DNA from: Pseudopedobacter sp.
Lineage (GTDB): Bacteria; Bacteroidota; Bacteroidia; Sphingobacteriales; Sphingobacteriaceae
Direction: 5' to 3'
Length of the DNA: 64,000 nt
Assembly (NCBI GenBank): GCA_014378105.1
Contig: JACMOI010000040.1
Coordinates: 1 to 64,000 of the forward strand
In this document: piece after piece, positions 8,625 through 30,670 of the stretch
Numbering within the stretch: position 1 is the stretch's first letter
Layout: each line of letters starts with the position of its first letter
Made by a program: the position numbers and the translations under genes
Notes under the pieces: generated by a model
Told to the model about the DNA's origin: nothing
What the model saw: only the letters and a program-made list of their open reading frames with translations
Database searches by the model: none

Positions 8625-9218
8625 ATGAAGAAACTCAAACTAGATATCATAGGCTTATCTTATAGTCAAACTCAATCCGGAGCTTATGCTCTAGTTTTAG
8701 GAGAAGTAAGCGGACGAAGAAGATTACCAATTATTATAGGAGGATTCGAAGCTCAAGCTATCGCGATAGAAATAGAAAAAATGACTCCCAGTAGGCCATT
8801 GACCCATGATCTTTTCAAGTCTTTTGCCGAAGCCTATCACATTAATATTCAGGAAGTAATTATCTATAATTTAGTTGATGGTATTTTCTACAGCAAGCTA
8901 ATCTGCAATGATGGCAAAAAGAATATGGAAATTGATGCTCGAACGTCTGATGCAATTGCATTAGCAGTTAGGTTCGAATGCCCAATTTACACCTATGAAT
9001 TTATATTAGCTTCCGCAGGAATAGTGATAGAAGGGAACGATTTTGTTTTTTTAGATAATATTGAACCTGCTGATGAAAGTAAACCCAAAGTTAGTGGTAA
9101 TTACACTTCTTTCTCCATAGAAGAGCTCCAAACAAAACTCCAAGAGGCTTTAAGCGAAGAAGCTTATGAAAAAGCAGCAAGGATAAGAGATGAGATCAGT
9201 AAAAGAAAAACATCCTAA
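8625..9218 (+). CDS. Bifunctional nuclease-family (BFN/DUF151) protein with C-terminal UVR motif
   Basis: A 197-residue soluble protein in two parts. Residues 5 to about 135 match the BFN (DUF151) fold: LGEVSGRRRLPIIIGGFEAQAIAIE, then RPLTHDLFKSFAEAY and DARTSDAIALAVRFECPIY. Some plant and bacterial members have been reported to cleave DNA and RNA; most bacterial ones are uncharacterised. Residues about 157-193 form a UvrB/UvrC-like helical hairpin (SIEELQTKLQEALSEEAYEKAARIRDEI), which elsewhere mediates protein contacts in repair and in protein arginine kinase systems. It stands alone between two spacers. Nuclease activity is not demonstrable from sequence. Confidence 0.85.
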   Translation: MKKLKLDIIGLSYSQTQSGAYALVLGEVSGRRRLPIIIGGFEAQAIAIEIEKMTPSRPLTHDLFKSFAEAYHINIQEVIIYNLVDGIFYSKLICNDGKKNMEIDARTSDAIALAVRFECPIYTYEFILASAGIVIEGNDFVFLDNIEPADESKPKVSGNYTSFSIEELQTKLQEALSEEAYEKAARIRDEISKRKTS

Positions 9219-9330
9219 CTAAGGCTTTAACCCTTGTTTTAGCAATTTATTATTCATCATATTTAATCGTTTTATTTATTCGTTAGAATACATATCTTAG
9301 GCGAAGTTTGCAATATTAATTCTTGATGAT

Positions 9331-10584
9331 ATGAATATTAAATCTCGCTTAATTGCGATGAATTTCCTTGAATTTTTTATTTGGGGATCATGGTTAATCT
9401 CTTTAGGTGGGTATATGTTTAGCGTTTTACATGCAACAGGTGCACAAATAGGCTTAACCTATGGCACTATGGGATTGGCTTCGCTTTTTATGCCTGCATT
9501 AATGGGTGTAATTGCGGATAGATGGATAAATGCTGAAAAGGTATTAGGTTTTTGTCATTTAGTTGGAGCGGGCTTATTATTCTGGGCTTCAAAGGTACAA
9601 GACCCTTCAATGATGTATTGGGTTATACTTTTTAATTCCATGTTCTTTATGCCAACTATCGCTCTAAATAATACTGTTTCTTATATTACGCTCGAAAAAA
9701 ATGGTTTTGATATTGTAAAAACCTTTCCTCCAATTAGAGTTTGGGGAACCATCGGTTTTATCGTGGCCGTTTGGGTAGTTGATTTATTTGGGTGGACATT
9801 AACTTCTTCTCAATTTATTGTTAGTGCTTCAGCATCAGTATTATTGGCTATTTACAGCTTTTCGATGCCCGCTTGTATTCCCGCAAAGAGAGATAAAAAA
9901 CTTTCGTGGTCAGAATCTTTTGGTTTAGATGCCTTGGTTTTATTTAAGAGGAAAAAGATGGTGATTTTTTTCCTTTTCGCCATGTTGTTGGGTGCAGCAT
10001 TGCAGATTACAAATGCTTTTGGCAAACCCTTTTTAGATGATTTTGGTAGTATTGCTGCTTATAAAGATTCTTTCGGGGTAAAACACTCTAATATTTTAAT
10101 TTCTATCTCTCAGATTTCCGAAACGCTTTTCATATTGGCCATTCCATTCTTTTTGAAAAGATTTGGAATTAAGACTGTCATGTTAATCAGTATAATTGCT
10201 TGGGTTTTTAGATTTGGCTTATTTGGAATTGGAAATCCTGGCGATGGATTATGGCTACTTGTAATGTCTATGATTATTTACGGAATGGCGTTTGATTTTT
10301 TTAATATCTCGGGTTCATTATTTGTGGAGCGTGAGGCAGAGCCAAAAATTAGGGCTAGTGCACAAGGTTTATTTATGGTTTTAACAAATGGTGTTGGTGC
10401 CTACTTAGGTGGTTGGATAAGCGGCTTAGTCGTGGATTATTTTACTATTGACGGGGTTAGAAACTGGCAAAATATCTGGTTTACTTTTGCTGCATATGCA
10501 TTAGTTCTTGCTATTATATTCCCGCTTGTTTTCAAATACAAGCATCAAAGAGATAAAGATATTGTTCCAAACTTAGTTCATTGA
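9331..10584 (+). CDS. Nucleoside:H+ symporter of the NupG/XapB MFS family
   Basis: A 417-residue membrane protein with about twelve hydrophobic segments. It starts MNIKSRLIAMNFLEFFIWGSW, a hallmark opening of NupG-type nucleoside permeases, and carries GVIADRWINAEKVLG between helices 2 and 3, the family's MFS loop motif. The segment PPIRVWGTIGFIVAVWVVD in the middle and YGMAFDFFNISGSLFVE near helix 10 also fit the family. It probably imports nucleosides across the inner membrane by proton symport. No nucleoside-catabolic genes lie next to it. A bidirectional terminator separates it from gltA. Confidence 0.85.
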   Translation: MNIKSRLIAMNFLEFFIWGSWLISLGGYMFSVLHATGAQIGLTYGTMGLASLFMPALMGVIADRWINAEKVLGFCHLVGAGLLFWASKVQDPSMMYWVILFNSMFFMPTIALNNTVSYITLEKNGFDIVKTFPPIRVWGTIGFIVAVWVVDLFGWTLTSSQFIVSASASVLLAIYSFSMPACIPAKRDKKLSWSESFGLDALVLFKRKKMVIFFLFAMLLGAALQITNAFGKPFLDDFGSIAAYKDSFGVKHSNILISISQISETLFILAIPFFLKRFGIKTVMLISIIAWVFRFGLFGIGNPGDGLWLLVMSMIIYGMAFDFFNISGSLFVEREAEPKIRASAQGLFMVLTNGVGAYLGGWISGLVVDYFTIDGVRNWQNIWFTFAAYALVLAIIFPLVFKYKHQRDKDIVPNLVH

Positions 10585-10612
10585 TGATTCATTAGTGAAG
10601 ATATTATTCAAC

Positions 10613-10642
10613 AAAAAAGCCACTTTGAAAAGTGGCTTTTTT
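10613..10642. terminator. Bidirectional terminator between the nucleoside permease and gltA
   Basis: A perfect 13-base-pair hairpin: AAAAAAGCCACTT (10613-10625), loop TGAA, AAGTGGCTTTTTT (10630-10642). An A-tract on one side and a T-tract on the other let it terminate both converging transcripts. Confidence 0.9.
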
Positions 10643-10661
10643 GTTAGGTTAAAATCCATTA

Positions 10662-11948
10662 TTATCTTTTTTCAATACTTACATAATCTCTGGTATTTTC
10701 ACCAGTATAAATTTGACGAGGACGACCAATTGGCTCTTTATTCTCTCTCATCTCTTTCCATTGTGAAATCCATCCTGGTAAGCGACCTAAAGCGAACAGA
10801 ACTGTAAACATTTCTGTTGGGAAACCTAGAGCTCTGTATATAATGCCTGAATAGAAATCAACGTTTGGATATAGTTTTCTCTCTACAAAATAAGAATCAC
10901 TTAAAGCAACTTCCTCTAACTTCTTAGCGATATCTAAAACTGGATCGTTAATTCCTAATTTCTCTAAAATATCATCACATGCCTTTTTAATGATTTTAGC
11001 TCGTGGATCAAAGTTTTTATAAACTCTGTGACCAAAGCCCATTAAGCGGAACGAATCATTTTTGTCTTTTGCTTTTAAAACCCACTTATCAACGTCACCA
11101 CCATCATTTTTAATCTTTTCGAGCATTTCAATTACAGCTTGATTTGCTCCCCCATGCAGTGGTCCCCACAATGCAGAAATACCCGCAGAAATAGATGCAT
11201 ATAGGTTACAATCAGAAGAACCTACAATTCTAACTGTTGAAGTAGAGCAATTTTGTTCATGATCGGCATGTAAGATCAATAACTTATTCATTGCGTTCAC
11301 AACAACTGGATCAATCTCTACCTCTTCTGTACGCTGACCAAAAGTCATGTTTAAGAAGTTAGTTACATAATCGTATTTGTTTTGAGGATATATGATTGGA
11401 TGTCCTAAAGACTTTTTATAAATCCAAGAAACGATAGTAGCCATCTTTGCTAAAAGTTTAATGATGGTTAAATCAAATTCTTCTTGTGTTTGATTTGGAT
11501 CTAATGATTCTGGATAAAATGAAGATAAAGAACATACCAACGAAGAAAGCTGTCCCATTGGATGAGATTTCGATGGAAATCCATCAAAAAACTTTTTCAT
11601 ATCCTCGTGAACTAATGTGTGTCTGCTGATCTGATGTTGAAAATCTGCAATTTGATCTTTAGTAGGTAAGCTGCCAAAGATCAATAAGTAGGCAACTTCT
11701 AAAAAGGAAGATTGATCTGCCAATTGCTCAATTGGATAACCTCTATATTTTAAAATTCCTTTTTCGCCATCTAAAAAGGTGATGGCACTTTTTGTTGCAC
11801 CTGTGTTTTTAAAACCACTATCTAATGTTATAAAACCAGATTGATCTCTTAATTTCGAAATATCTATCGCTTTTTCATTTTCTGTACCTTCTATAATTGG
11901 TAAGCTGTAAACTGTACCTTCTAATTTAAGTTCTGCTGTTTCTGACAT
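10662..11948 (-). CDS. gltA: Citrate synthase (type II, hexameric class)
   Basis: Condenses acetyl-CoA with oxaloacetate to citrate, the entry step of the TCA cycle. The 428-residue length equals the Gram-negative hexameric type. All three catalytic residues are visible: His265 in WGPLHGGANQA, His307 in GFGHRVYKNFDPRA and Asp364 in NVDFYSGIIYRALGFP. LHADHEQNCSTSTVR at 226-240 is the conserved substrate-site helix. A good Bacteroidota promoter lies just upstream (11968-11999), giving a short leader of roughly 10-15 bases. Confidence 0.97.
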   Translation of the reverse strand: MSETAELKLEGTVYSLPIIEGTENEKAIDISKLRDQSGFITLDSGFKNTGATKSAITFLDGEKGILKYRGYPIEQLADQSSFLEVAYLLIFGSLPTKDQIADFQHQISRHTLVHEDMKKFFDGFPSKSHPMGQLSSLVCSLSSFYPESLDPNQTQEEFDLTIIKLLAKMATIVSWIYKKSLGHPIIYPQNKYDYVTNFLNMTFGQRTEEVEIDPVVVNAMNKLLILHADHEQNCSTSTVRIVGSSDCNLYASISAGISALWGPLHGGANQAVIEMLEKIKNDGGDVDKWVLKAKDKNDSFRLMGFGHRVYKNFDPRAKIIKKACDDILEKLGINDPVLDIAKKLEEVALSDSYFVERKLYPNVDFYSGIIYRALGFPTEMFTVLFALGRLPGWISQWKEMRENKEPIGRPRQIYTGENTRDYVSIEKR

Positions 11949-24968: not shown

Positions 24969-25769
24969 ATGAATAAAATCTACCCTTTTATTCTTTTGTT
25001 AGTTTTATCATATCCTGCTTTTTGTCAGGTTAATTATGGACCCAGAATAGCTTCATTAGCAAATGCTGGCGTTGCTTTGCAAGATGTTTGGTGTGCACAA
25101 AATAATCAGGCTGGCTTAGCCAAAATAGAAAGACCACAAATTTCTATGGCTTATGAAAGTAGATTTGGTGTAAAAGAATTAAGCACAAAATCTGCCGTTT
25201 TTGCCTTACCATTCAAAAGTTATGTCATTTCGGCTTCTTTCACTTCTTATGGTGTAGAAAGTTATGCAGAAACAAAAACTGGGTTAAGTTTAGCCAAAAA
25301 ATTTGGTGATAACCTTCATTTAGCAGTCAACGCCAATTACCATCAAATTAACATCACCAATTATGGAAACAGAAGCACTTTTTCTGTTGAAGCAGGCATT
25401 CAGTACGAAGTAACACCTAATTTATGGTTAGCATCGCATATTGCAAATCCAAATCAAAGTAAATACGGCAAAAACACAGATCAAATTATTCCGCCTCATA
25501 TACGTTTTGGAGCAAATTACATATTCTCTAAACAGTTGATGATTTGTACGGAAATTGAGAAAATATTAGATGGGAATACCGATTTTAAAACCGGCATAGA
25601 ATACAAAATAGTCGACTTCTTATCTTTAAGAGGTGGAATAAGTGTAAACACATTTAAGCAATATGCTGGTTTCGGCTTAAATTATCAAAAAATAGCATTT
25701 GATTTTGCAGTTTCTTCCCATCCAGTATTAGGTTATTCTCCACAAATTTCATTAAGTTATGAATTCTAG
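24969..25769 (+). CDS. Predicted outer-membrane beta-barrel protein
   Basis: A 266-residue exported protein. The signal peptide (MNKIYPFILLLVLSYPAFC) ends in FCQ, and the remainder alternates polar and aromatic residues as in small outer-membrane barrels; it ends ISLSYEF, a C-terminal Phe typical of barrels inserted by the BAM machinery. NAGVALQDVWCAQNNQAGLA near the N-terminus resembles the start of PorV/FadL-like Bacteroidota barrels. It overlaps the next barrel gene by 11 bases, so the two and ComEC form one unit. Function unknown. Confidence 0.7.
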   Translation: MNKIYPFILLLVLSYPAFCQVNYGPRIASLANAGVALQDVWCAQNNQAGLAKIERPQISMAYESRFGVKELSTKSAVFALPFKSYVISASFTSYGVESYAETKTGLSLAKKFGDNLHLAVNANYHQINITNYGNRSTFSVEAGIQYEVTPNLWLASHIANPNQSKYGKNTDQIIPPHIRFGANYIFSKQLMICTEIEKILDGNTDFKTGIEYKIVDFLSLRGGISVNTFKQYAGFGLNYQKIAFDFAVSSHPVLGYSPQISLSYEF

Positions 25770-27819
25770 GTGGAAAACCATACTGTTTCTATGTATCAAT
25801 TTGATTTTCTTTAAATCTTATGCCCAGCAAACTAATGATCTGGTGATAGAATATATCATAGAGTCAATTGCTGCAAATCAAACTGAAGATTTCGATTATA
25901 CCGAGTTGGTTGATCGCTTAAATTATTATCGAAAGAATAAAATCAATCTAAATAAGACAAACCGTGAGCAATTGCAAGAACTCTATTTCTTAAATCCTTT
26001 ACAAATTAACAACCTTTTAGATCATATTGCAGTCAACGATAAACTGATTCATACATTAGAGTTGCAAAGTATTGATGGATTTGATTTAGAAACGATTAAG
26101 AATCTATTATACTTTGCAGATATCAATACGCCTACAGGTTTTGAGAATTTTTCTTTCAAAAGACTATTTAGAGATGGTAGAAATGATATTTTAATTAGAT
26201 ATAATCGATATTTGGAGCCTCAAATTAGTTATGCTATTCCCAATAACTCTAACAAATCGCGTTATTTAGGTTCTCCTGAAAGAGTCTACACTCGATATCG
26301 ATTCTCATTTAGTAATAACATCCAATTCTCTTTAAATTTAGAAAAAGATGCAGGCGAAAAGTTTTGGAATAATACCAATAACTTAAAAGGACCTGATTTT
26401 GTCTCTGCGAGTTTATATATCAAAGACTTAAGTAAAATTAAGAAATTAGTAATTGGTGACTACGCTTTACAATTTGGACAAGGTTTAACACTTTGGAGCG
26501 GTTTAAGTTTTGGAAAAGGTGCCGATATTTTTACAGTTGCAAAGCAAGATTTAGGTTTAAGACCTTATACATCTGTAAATGAATATTCCTTTTTTAGGGG
26601 GATTTCCACTCAAATTAATTTCGGAAGATTTGATTTTACTCCTTTTATTTCTTTCAATAAACTAGACGCTGGCATTAGCTTAAATCCAATTACCAATGCT
26701 CAGGATATATCTTCTTTACAACAAAGTGGTTTACATCGTACAGAGAATGAGTTAAAGAATAAAAACAGAATTAATCAACAAGTTTTTGGTGGAAATTTAC
26801 AATATAGCGTTCGCAAATTATCCATTGGCTTAACCGGATATCATTCTAAGTATAGTGAGAATTTTGCTCCAGGAACTTCCCTTTATAATCAGTTTAATTT
26901 TTCTGGTAATCAGTTAGATAATGTAGGTATTAATTATAGTTACACCTATCAGAACATCTATTTCTTTGGTGAATTTGCACATAGTTTAGGTAGTGGAATT
27001 GCCTATATCAATGGTCTAATTAGCAGTTTATCACCAGCTGTTTCTATGGTTTTATTTCATCGGAATTACCAAAAAAATTATTACTCTTTCTATAACCAAG
27101 GAATTGGAGAAAGTAGCACAGCGGTAAATGAAAAAGGTTTTTATGGCGGCTTGCAAATTAAACCTGATAGTAAGTTAGAGCTTAATTTCTATGCCGATTT
27201 ATTCAAGTTCCCATGGTTAAAATTTAGGGTTGATGCGCCTTCTACTGGCTTCGATTTATTCAGTCAGCTAAATTTCACACCCAATAAAACCACTCGTTTT
27301 AGTTTAAGATATCAATTCCAAAATAAACAGCAAAATTCTCCCAATTCATCATTTGTTAATAGTTTGGGTTTTGTTAAAAAATCAAATTACAGAGTTGAAT
27401 ATCAATATCAGATTAACAAAACCTTCAGTTTAAGAAACAGAATTGAAATGGTTCAATATCATGAAGAAAATTCACCTTTTCGATATGGTTATTTAGCTTA
27501 TCAGGATATAAATTACAATCCTTTAAGTTCTAAAATATCAGGAAATATGCGTTTTGCATTATTTGATACCGATGGTTTTGATACCAGAATTTACGCTTAT
27601 GAGAACGACGTTTTATATGGTTTTTCAATCCCTGCTTTTCAAAATCAAGGAATTAGATATTATGCCAATGCCCGTTATAATTTAAAAAGAGGAATAGATT
27701 TTTGGGTTCGGTATAGCTATACTCAATATAATAATCAAACAACAGTTGGTTCTGGTTTAGATTTGATTGAAGGAAATCACCGGTCGGAAATAAAAATTCA
27801 ATTGAGATTTCAATTTTAA
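25759..27819 (+). CDS. Helix-hairpin-helix domain protein with C-terminal outer-membrane barrel
   Basis: A 686-residue exported protein. After a signal peptide (FLCINLIFFKSYAQQ) comes a helical region at about 45-135 with two HHH-like units: KINLNKTNREQLQELYFLN recalls the INLNTA-EEL start of ComEA, and LQSIDGFDLETIKNLLYF is a second. The glycine-rich hairpin turn is not conserved. From about residue 145 to the end, repeated amphipathic strands ending in FQF suggest a large outer-membrane barrel. The gene overlaps the barrel gene before it and comEC after it, which hints at DNA or polymer passage over the outer membrane, but this is unproven. Confidence 0.75.
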   Translation: MNSRWKTILFLCINLIFFKSYAQQTNDLVIEYIIESIAANQTEDFDYTELVDRLNYYRKNKINLNKTNREQLQELYFLNPLQINNLLDHIAVNDKLIHTLELQSIDGFDLETIKNLLYFADINTPTGFENFSFKRLFRDGRNDILIRYNRYLEPQISYAIPNNSNKSRYLGSPERVYTRYRFSFSNNIQFSLNLEKDAGEKFWNNTNNLKGPDFVSASLYIKDLSKIKKLVIGDYALQFGQGLTLWSGLSFGKGADIFTVAKQDLGLRPYTSVNEYSFFRGISTQINFGRFDFTPFISFNKLDAGISLNPITNAQDISSLQQSGLHRTENELKNKNRINQQVFGGNLQYSVRKLSIGLTGYHSKYSENFAPGTSLYNQFNFSGNQLDNVGINYSYTYQNIYFFGEFAHSLGSGIAYINGLISSLSPAVSMVLFHRNYQKNYYSFYNQGIGESSTAVNEKGFYGGLQIKPDSKLELNFYADLFKFPWLKFRVDAPSTGFDLFSQLNFTPNKTTRFSLRYQFQNKQQNSPNSSFVNSLGFVKKSNYRVEYQYQINKTFSLRNRIEMVQYHEENSPFRYGYLAYQDINYNPLSSKISGNMRFALFDTDGFDTRIYAYENDVLYGFSIPAFQNQGIRYYANARYNLKRGIDFWVRYSYTQYNNQTTVGSGLDLIEGNHRSEIKIQLRFQF

Positions 27820-29894
27820 TGATTGCTTATTACAAAACAGAAGTTCCGTTTTTACGTCTGCTCTTATTTTTTATAGGTGGGATTTCTATTTCTATACTTT
27901 TTAATTTGGCTCCACAAATTTTTTGGTTGTTCATTTGGGTTATTCTATTTATAGCTTTATTAGGGTTTGCCATTAGCTATAAAAGTCAAAAAGTTTATCT
28001 CCACTCCCATTTCATAGGAATTCTGATTTATTTACAAATGATAATTTCAGGAATTATTTTATGCAATCAGCATAAACAGATTTATTGGAAATCTCACTTC
28101 TCAAATCAGCCAGCAGATGAGTTGATTATAACAATTGATGAAGAACCCAGGATAAAAGGAGACATCGCCAGATTCGATGCTAATGTGAAAGGCAGTATTT
28201 TTAATGGAGTGTATAATCAAACCGAAGGAAAGCTTTTGTTGGCTATGCGCTTTGACACTACGAAAGCGCTGAATTTAAATTATGGTGATGATTTGCTCAT
28301 TAAAGCTAAATATGAAGCCACCGAACAGCCTTATAATTCAGCCGAGTTCAATTATAAAAGATATTTGTCCTTTCAACAGATTTATCATCAAACGTTTATC
28401 AAACAAAAACAGGCTGCGAAAATCGATTCAAATAAAGGAAATTTCATAAAAGCTTTCGCGTTAAAATTTAGAACACAACAAGTCAAAAAGTTTAAGAATT
28501 TCCTTCCTGATAAAGAGGCTCAAGCAGTTGCATCAACATTGATTTTAGGATACCGAACTGATTTAAGTAAAGATATTTTAGACGCTTACTCTAAAACAGG
28601 GACCATGCATGTGCTTTCCGTTTCTGGGATGCATGTCGCTATTGTAGTTTTATTATTAGATTTTCTTCTCTCTTTCATGAATAAAAAAACAAAGTGGCGA
28701 ATCATAAAATCTATCTTAATGATTAGCCTGATTTGGTTTTATGCCTTATTAGCTGGTCTTGCTCCGTCTGTAGAACGAGCAGCAATTATGCTGACGTTTA
28801 TTTTAGTGGCTAAAGCTTTCAACAAGCGGATTAACATTTTCAATATCATTGCAATTGCGGCCTTTATCATTCTGATTAACAATCCATTTAGTTTAACCAA
28901 TGTAGGTTTTCAACTTTCTTTTATTGCAGTTTGCGGGTTGATTTATCTACAGCCAAAAATCAGTCAACTTTATCAGCCAAAAAACAGAGTTTTACAATTT
29001 TGTTGGACCTGCATTTCTGTATCTATTGCAGCGCAATTGTCGACTGCACCTATCAGTTTATATTACTTTCATCAGTTTCCGGTTTATTTTGTAATTAGCA
29101 ATCTATTCATCACGCTCCCTGCTATTTTAATTATGTATGCAGGTATCTCTTTTCTTCTACTAAGCTTCGTAACTCCATTGGCAAAAGTTTTAGGAATTAT
29201 TTTAAATGAGCTTATTAGCTTTACTAATAAAGGTTTGATTTTGATAGAGCAGTTACACTATGCCAACATTACCCAAATATGGATGAGTTTTAGTGAGATT
29301 ATTCTTTTCTATTTAATTCTGATTTTAACACTCAAATCTATCAAAGAAAAGCGCTATTTAAAGTTTGCAATAATTGCTTTTAGCTTTTTAATCCTTGGTA
29401 AAACGTATAGTCATTTTAAAAGCCTAAGACAAAAGCAGGTTACCTTCTTTAGTCTTAGAAAAAACACGGCTGTGGCATTTATAAATGGTAGAAACGCGTT
29501 CTTAATCACAGATTTAAATCCTGATGAATACACTTATTTATTTTCTGTTAAACCTTATTTGGATAGTTGTCAAATTAATCAAATTCAATATTATGATCCT
29601 CATCAAAACAAAAGCGAAAAATTATTTACTTTTGAAAATTATCGGTTAAAAATTGTCCATCAAGAAGAAAAAATAAAAGGTTTAAATAAAATCGATTGGT
29701 TAATACTTAGTGGTGATCACCTGTATGATTTAACAAATATTTTAGATCAAAATAAATACGAGAAACTTTTTATTGACGGAAAAAACAGAGACTTTGTTAT
29801 AAAAAGTATGCAAACACAACTCTTAAAACATAATTTAAATGTTCATGTTTTAAAGAGACGTTTCTGCATTGAATTAAAAATTAATAAAAAGTAG
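27819..29894 (+). CDS. comEC: ComEC/Rec2-family competence-like membrane protein
   Basis: ComEC forms the inner-membrane channel for single-stranded DNA in natural transformation. This 691-residue version has N-terminal membrane segments and a DUF4131-like domain (residues about 1-200), then the competence domain with the family hallmark TGTMHVLSVSGMHVA at 260-274 and LAPSVERAAIMLTF further on. The C-terminal 180 residues sit where a metallo-beta-lactamase domain is found in many ComEC proteins, but no HxHxDH motif is present, so it is probably not a nuclease. It overlaps the HHH-barrel gene by one base and precedes an enoyl-CoA hydratase gene by 5 bases. Confidence 0.9.
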   Translation: MIAYYKTEVPFLRLLLFFIGGISISILFNLAPQIFWLFIWVILFIALLGFAISYKSQKVYLHSHFIGILIYLQMIISGIILCNQHKQIYWKSHFSNQPADELIITIDEEPRIKGDIARFDANVKGSIFNGVYNQTEGKLLLAMRFDTTKALNLNYGDDLLIKAKYEATEQPYNSAEFNYKRYLSFQQIYHQTFIKQKQAAKIDSNKGNFIKAFALKFRTQQVKKFKNFLPDKEAQAVASTLILGYRTDLSKDILDAYSKTGTMHVLSVSGMHVAIVVLLLDFLLSFMNKKTKWRIIKSILMISLIWFYALLAGLAPSVERAAIMLTFILVAKAFNKRINIFNIIAIAAFIILINNPFSLTNVGFQLSFIAVCGLIYLQPKISQLYQPKNRVLQFCWTCISVSIAAQLSTAPISLYYFHQFPVYFVISNLFITLPAILIMYAGISFLLLSFVTPLAKVLGIILNELISFTNKGLILIEQLHYANITQIWMSFSEIILFYLILILTLKSIKEKRYLKFAIIAFSFLILGKTYSHFKSLRQKQVTFFSLRKNTAVAFINGRNAFLITDLNPDEYTYLFSVKPYLDSCQINQIQYYDPHQNKSEKLFTFENYRLKIVHQEEKIKGLNKIDWLILSGDHLYDLTNILDQNKYEKLFIDGKNRDFVIKSMQTQLLKHNLNVHVLKRRFCIELKINKK

Positions 29895-29899
29895 TAAAT

Positions 29900-30670
29900 A
29901 TGTTAGTAGATTATCAGGTATCAGAAAGAATAGCTTCTATTACCTTAAATAGGGCCGAAAAGAGGAATGCTTTAAATTCTGAAGTGGTAAAAGAACTTAT
30001 AAAAGCTTTTATAACCGCAGAGCATGATGAACAAGTAAAAGTAATTATCTTAAAAGCTAATGGAGATGTTTTTAGTGCTGGTGCTGACTTAGATTACCTC
30101 AAAAAGCTTCAATCCAACTCGTTTGAAGAAAATCTTTCAGACTCAAATCTACTTAAAAAGTTATTTCAACAAATTTATCAGCAACCAAAAATAGTAATTG
30201 CCCAAGTAGAAGGTCATGCCATCGCGGGAGGTTGTGGTTTAGCATCAATTTGCGACTATATATTTAGTGTACCTGAAGCTAGGTTTGGCTATACAGAAGT
30301 AAAAATAGGGTTTATACCAGCCATCGTAGCTGTGTTTTTAGTCAGAAAAATTGGGGAAGGAAAAGCGAAAGAACTTTTGTTTAGTGGTGATTTAATTGAT
30401 GCTGAAAAAGCACAAAAATTAGGGTTAATCAATTACATTATCGATCCTAATAAAATTGCTGATGAAGTAAAAATTTTCGCTTTAAAACTTTGTAAAAGTA
30501 CTTCAGCTCAATCAATTGCGTTAACAAAACAATTATTAAATAATGTGCAAGATTTACCCTTGACAGAAGCGCTTGAATTTGCATCAGAAATGAATGCTCA
30601 TGCCCGCTCAACCCATGATTGTAAGAAGGGAATTTCTGCTTTTTTGAATAAAATTAAAATTGAGTGGTAA
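29900..30670 (+). CDS. Enoyl-CoA hydratase/isomerase family (crotonase) protein
   Basis: A 256-residue crotonase-fold enzyme. The oxyanion-hole segment ANGDVFSAGADLDYLKKL and the second one, EGHAIAGGCGLASICDYIF, are intact; ARFGYTEVKIGFIPA follows in the active-site region. Crotonases hydrate enoyl-CoA or catalyse related CoA-ester reactions. The Glu of FGYTEVKIG is at a usual catalytic position. It follows comEC by only 5 bases, probably because of a shared transcript and not a shared function. The exact substrate cannot be told. Confidence 0.88.
   Translation: MLVDYQVSERIASITLNRAEKRNALNSEVVKELIKAFITAEHDEQVKVIILKANGDVFSAGADLDYLKKLQSNSFEENLSDSNLLKKLFQQIYQQPKIVIAQVEGHAIAGGCGLASICDYIFSVPEARFGYTEVKIGFIPAIVAVFLVRKIGEGKAKELLFSGDLIDAEKAQKLGLINYIIDPNKIADEVKIFALKLCKSTSAQSIALTKQLLNNVQDLPLTEALEFASEMNAHARSTHDCKKGISAFLNKIKIEW

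Follow-up and report, generated by a model that had tools for sequence, protein, structure and literature searches.

Within the window, by which we mean the whole stretch of 64,000 nucleotides that was analyzed, a gene encoding a ComEA-type HHH region joined to a strand-rich outer-membrane domain (hereafter the HHH-barrel) lies between the gene for a small outer-membrane barrel and comEC. The HHH-barrel is best read as an outer-membrane component of DNA uptake acting with ComEC and with a separate ComEA, and a barrel of this kind, found throughout the phylum and tied to comEC in the operon of the window's family, constitutes a candidate outer-membrane door for DNA. The more specific proposal, that the two barrel proteins assemble in the outer membrane of Bacteroidota and admit the DNA used in ComEC-dependent natural transformation, seems to us evenly poised between right and wrong. 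According to this proposal, DNA would enter via or beside the large barrel, the side of which would be guarded by the PorV-like small barrel by analogy with PorV on SprA, an arrangement established for type IX secretion. The HHH region would sit at the periplasmic mouth, where it would more likely dock a partner or gate the pore than grip DNA; within the periplasm the DNA would pass to the separate ComEA, a membrane-anchored protein with three HHH units, which would provide the grip, and ComEC would move one strand inward. We infer the pore, DNA as its cargo, the formation of a complex and the handover from the data presented below. The parts are each of known kinds, and it is their combination, together with the proposed non-secretin route, that is new. 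If the proposal is correct, the DNA-uptake pore would be neither a secretin nor part of a pilus, and since there is a single gene to delete, the question of how DNA crosses the outer membrane becomes directly testable.

Table 1. Features of the barrel-comEC locus (positions in the window).
Feature	Position	Strand	Basis
Small outer-membrane barrel, predicted PorV/FadL-type fold, 266 aa	24969..25769	+	NF033709, AF2, Foldseek
HHH-barrel, 686 aa	25759..27819	+	ORF; homologues detected across Bacteroidota (290 or more of 395 genomes)
HHH region of ComEA type in the HHH-barrel (residues 61-122); hairpins FLNP and GFDL, both degenerate	25939..26124	+	HHH_3, profile, AF2 helices, hairpin and charge counts
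Residues 140-686 of the HHH-barrel, predicted strand-rich outer-membrane domain with Phe as last residue	26176..27816	+	Low-confidence AF2 model; conserved motifs, alignment of 39
ComEC, DUF4131 and Competence domains, 691 aa	27819..29894	+	PF03772, PF13567
Enoyl-CoA hydratase family gene	29900..30670	+	PF00378 (9e-57)

The three overlapping genes described in the sequence-only reading, for a small barrel, an HHH-barrel and ComEC, are all present between positions 24969 and 29894 of the plus strand (Table 1). The two barrel genes overlap by 11 nt, the HHH-barrel and comEC genes by 1 nt at a TAATG joint, and a gap of 5 nt separates comEC from the enoyl-CoA hydratase gene, all of which are signs of an operon. 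The hydratase gene, which comes after comEC at some but not all loci of the family, is probably co-transcribed with the operon and is not thought to belong to its function. The nearest upstream neighbor of position 24969 is a divergent metallophosphoesterase gene; a simple pattern search upstream of this position found no Bacteroidota-type -7 box, and an Rfam search of the 64-kb window yielded no match. In a locus of family f8 (L166:8608-11365), comEC likewise adjoins an enoyl-CoA hydratase gene and the HHH-barrel is absent, indicating that this neighborhood is not confined to the window's family.

The identity of ComEC is certain, given its matches to PF03772 (8.7e-60; 202.8 bits against a cut-off of 23) and to DUF4131 (PF13567; 8.5e-21). 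Its score of 121.6 bits against TIGR00361, the ComEC_Rec2 equivalog model, is under the cut-off of 190.05, and no Lactamase_B domain was found in it, in agreement with the main ComEC profile reported for Bacteroidetes, which consists of DUF4131 and Competence (PMC6299819).

Identification of the HHH region depends upon the family as a whole. Taken alone, the HHH-barrel of the window gives only a marginal HHH_3 match (E of 0.11, under the cut-off, and 0.019 in the genome search), and a phmmer search with this single protein returned no match in the PDB. HHH_3 is nevertheless matched by 38 of 39 homologues at E <= 0.01 (best 1.2e-18), and the family profile, at its positions 64-129, matches the ComEA structures 8dss (7e-14) and 8dfk (2.4e-12). 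These family-level matches rule out a chance resemblance in the window protein and bear out the original assignment of an N-terminal ComEA-type HHH region; in the profile search, ComEA is its closest solved relative from the bacterial envelope, and this homology argues for a role in DNA uptake. The predicted fold is in keeping with the assignment, as AF2 places helices at residues 48-59, 69-73, 80-93, 99-102 and 110-119, a five-helix pattern that fits an (HhH)2 unit and has a pLDDT of mostly 66-81, with one block at 55, in a model built from a shallow input alignment of six rows. The protein carries a signal peptide, and its C-terminal part appears barrel-like in pattern, with approximately 26 strand segments and a C-terminal Phe, in a low-confidence model with a whole-chain mean pLDDT of 46, owing to which the size of the barrel is a guess only; the poor quality of this model counts against the uptake proposal. 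No Pfam or NCBIfam model covers the barrel part of most family members, and a literature search covering papers available without subscription returned no named HHH-barrel. In comparison with ComEA, the competence DNA receptor (PF12836/COG1555), the HHH-barrel contains an HHH domain of the same type, for which a periplasmic location is likewise expected. However, ComEA is a small stand-alone protein, anchored or periplasmic, whereas the HHH of the 686-aa HHH-barrel is fused to a large, strand-rich outer-membrane domain at the C-terminus.

The small barrel described in the sequence-only reading is similarly upheld. Its AF2 model (pLDDT 76) consists of short N-terminal helices followed by 14 strands, and in Foldseek the best E-value belongs to FadL, with the type IX protein PorV (8gl6_F) matched at a TM of 0.74. 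Sequence similarity is weak: the score against NF033709, the PorV/PorQ model (4.5e-13; 49.5 bits), is under the family cut-off of 90, such that the protein has a predicted fold of the FadL/PorV type yet is not a certified PorV. Like PorV with SprA, it is paired with a large barrel; unlike that pair, the large partner here is not SprA and is distributed independently of it.

Within the window's family, comEC lies directly 3' of the HHH-barrel gene at 42 of 43 loci from more than 20 genera (11 of 11 in one locus set and 31 of 32 in another, the loci having been picked to spread over families and genera and not drawn at random). Pairwise identity among 31 compared HHH-barrels of the family is 26-69%, the distance between the HHH-barrel gene and comEC falls between -19 and +5 nt in 26 of the 30 cases measured, and the exact 11-nt overlap of the two barrel genes recurs at 17 of 25 loci. 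At two loci (L047 and L050), gyrB lies upstream, the small barrel is absent and the HHH-barrel gene is still linked to comEC; the link thus outlives both the small barrel and the upstream neighbors. A family-wide operon with this degree of persistence argues for a role in DNA uptake and makes a role beside ComEC, as envisaged originally, the best reading. Outside the family, comEC was found near the HHH-barrel gene at 0 of 48 loci, and the small barrel gene lies directly upstream at 41 of 59 loci when those of the family and those outside it are counted together, from which it follows that the phylum-wide unit is the barrel pair and that linkage to comEC is confined to the family. The expectation that gene order would be kept in relatives therefore holds within the window's family and fails, as regards comEC, beyond it.

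This lack of a comEC link outside the family counts against the uptake proposal and favors its most serious competitor, namely that the barrel pair performs an unrelated outer-membrane job, such as nutrient or lipid transport or envelope upkeep, that comEC joined it by chance or for shared expression, and that the HHH serves in protein docking. Also in favor of such a job are the FadL-like fold of the small barrel, the degenerate and acidic HHH described below, and the enoyl-CoA hydratase gene found after comEC in some family members. Against it stand the constancy of the comEC linkage among so many genera, the relationship of the HHH to ComEA, and the absences shared with ComEC in family f38 and genomes G317 and G391 that are detailed in the next paragraph. 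On balance, we consider an unrelated job possible but less likely than not.

A first profile detected HHH-barrel homologues in no fewer than 290 of the 395 Bacteroidota genomes, including green sulfur bacteria (family f18, identified as Chlorobiaceae by the presence of the FMO protein), and in 118 of 151 genomes of the window's family; the phylum-wide count is a lower bound because a broader profile, applied to 48 chosen genomes, recovered more HHH-barrels in families first scored as lacking them (e.g., G109, G160, G006). The protein is absent, or too remote for the profiles to recover, in families f3 and f4 (by inference, probably Weeksellaceae and Flavobacteriaceae, respectively), in genus g4 of the window's family, in part of f2, in f38 and in some others. 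ComEC is absent from 15 of the 395 genomes, 10 of which also lack the HHH-barrel (eight genomes of f38, G317 and G391); the remaining five are draft genomes of f18, and completeness is 77-84% in four of these. In family f24, the HHH-barrel occurs in 44 of 45 genomes, the exception, G317, being the sole f24 genome without ComEC. The joint absence in ten genomes argues for a role in DNA uptake, and co-occurrence of the two proteins gives a Fisher p of 0.001, or of 2e-5 at >=90% completeness, in a test that ignores kinship and uses counts made by hand. That this signal amounts to two or three independent losses weighs against the uptake proposal. Presence of the HHH-barrel is associated with ComEC and not with SprA.

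Also weighing against the proposal is the presence of ComEC without the HHH-barrel in genus g4 and in families f3 and f4. Inspection by eye of the g4 locus (L163; comEC at 8842-10701) shows flanks matching those of the window on both sides, with a MerR-type gene upstream and DUF4412-like, ferritin-like, BioA-like, NUDIX and cation-efflux genes downstream, and with both barrels and the hydratase absent. This looks like a clean loss of the barrels with ComEC kept, and shows that ComEC can persist without them. In genus g2 (L196 in G475, as well as G491 and G466), the HHH-barrel frame contains an in-frame stop or is split in two ORFs, and the small barrel, too, is missing from most g2 loci examined, which looks like decay of the barrel system in this genus or may reflect sequencing error.

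The sequence-only reading went further in proposing that the fused protein serves both as DNA receptor and as outer-membrane channel, with an HHH that itself binds DNA and with no separate ComEA. While the ComEA-type HHH at the N-terminus and comEC in the same operon speak for a combined protein, we now regard it as unlikely. Firstly, the claim that no separate ComEA exists is refuted by a 306-aa protein encoded on another contig of the window genome (G000:C160:7557-8474, minus strand), which has a membrane segment at its N-terminus and three HHH units; the second of these units carries GIGP and a net charge of +4. A homologue of this separate ComEA was identified in 31 of 31 genomes (the window genome and 30 relatives), in a few by partial match only, and a ComEA profile matches 347 of the 395 genomes of the phylum sample, mostly as generic HHH matches outside the window's class. 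In genomes of family f3 (G012:C1:765140-766348, G210 and G281), the separate ComEA-like frames are longer, at roughly 425-475 aa with four profile matches, which suggests that the protein has gained HHH units in this family, itself devoid of the HHH-barrel.

Secondly, the hairpins of DNA-binding HHH domains carry a G-h-G motif, and in neither hairpin of the window HHH-barrel is this canonical pattern found. Among 51 members, hairpin 1 shows the first G in 11 cases and the G at the third position in 4, the corresponding counts for hairpin 2 being 34 and 6. Residues 45-122 carry a net charge of -4 in the window protein, and most members are likewise negative over this region; mean identity to the window protein across the phylum is 28% for the HHH part versus 35% for the barrel part. 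Unlike ComEA, then, the HHH-barrel is acidic and has not kept the G-h-G hairpins, and DNA binding by its own HHH is on these grounds doubtful; in the window's lineage, a docking or gating role appears at least as likely. Degeneration of the domain also counts against DNA uptake as a whole. A canonical second hairpin is kept in some lineages (e.g., L062, L067, L069), which favors a combined receptor to that extent and makes an ancestral DNA-binding role possible.

As an outer-membrane component of DNA uptake, the HHH-barrel would serve the same step as a PilQ-type secretin pore, the passage of DNA across the outer membrane, but the operon proteins contain no secretin domain (PF00263). Similarly, a search of the window genome and its 17 congeners revealed no secretin despite the presence of ComEC and a ComEA, a combination that argues for the uptake role, nor was one found in any of the 13 HHH-barrel-bearing genomes of the window's class in one comparison set (0/13). 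Genome G412 of the window's family has both a secretin and the HHH-barrel, as do many HHH-barrel-bearing genomes of other classes, so that the HHH-barrel does not strictly take the place of a secretin; their occurrence side by side counts against the uptake role. A wider proposal would make the HHH-barrel, together with the PorV-like barrel in those genomes that have one, the translocon by which DNA crosses the outer membrane independently of a secretin in much of Bacteroidota, counting the green sulfur bacteria; in f3 and f4 it would have been lost, presumably with replacement by another barrel. We offer this tentatively, as we would sooner expect it to fail than to hold.

Studies of competent Bacteroidota provide points of comparison. 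In the naturally competent Porphyromonas gingivalis, transformation needs a ComEA and ComEC, and the route by which DNA reaches the periplasm is stated to be unclear; its PGN_0421, called ComEA, has an HHH at 94-165 and may be either a short ComEA or an HHH-barrel (PMC11532111). The transformation machinery of Riemerella anatipestifer, reported as unique, resembles the set considered here in that it needs ComEC, a periplasmic protein with three HHH domains and a barrel predicted to lie in the outer membrane, and has no known pilus part (PMC8459023). The RA0C_RS02645 product, which has three HHH domains and is essential for transformation, is similar in layout, as compared by description only, to the separate ComEA of the window genome, whereas the Riemerella barrel, again by description, is set apart as being of the carboxypeptidase-regulatory-domain type without an HHH (PMC8459023).

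Lastly, a function of the barrel pair as an accessory of type IX secretion, to which the PorV/FadL-type fold of the small barrel, its resemblance to NF033709 and the presence of SprA in the window genome would point, is highly improbable and was rejected on the distribution of SprA, which is absent from seven HHH-barrel-bearing genomes (four Chlorobiaceae and three of family f11) and present in all nine of the HHH-barrel-lacking genomes tested. At two f11 loci where the small barrel is missing, the position directly upstream of the HHH-barrel gene is taken by divergent, mutually similar secreted-type genes of 200-218 aa (L060:8495-9097 and L085:8388-9044), the products of which share the ending DPxGxDxLTERV.
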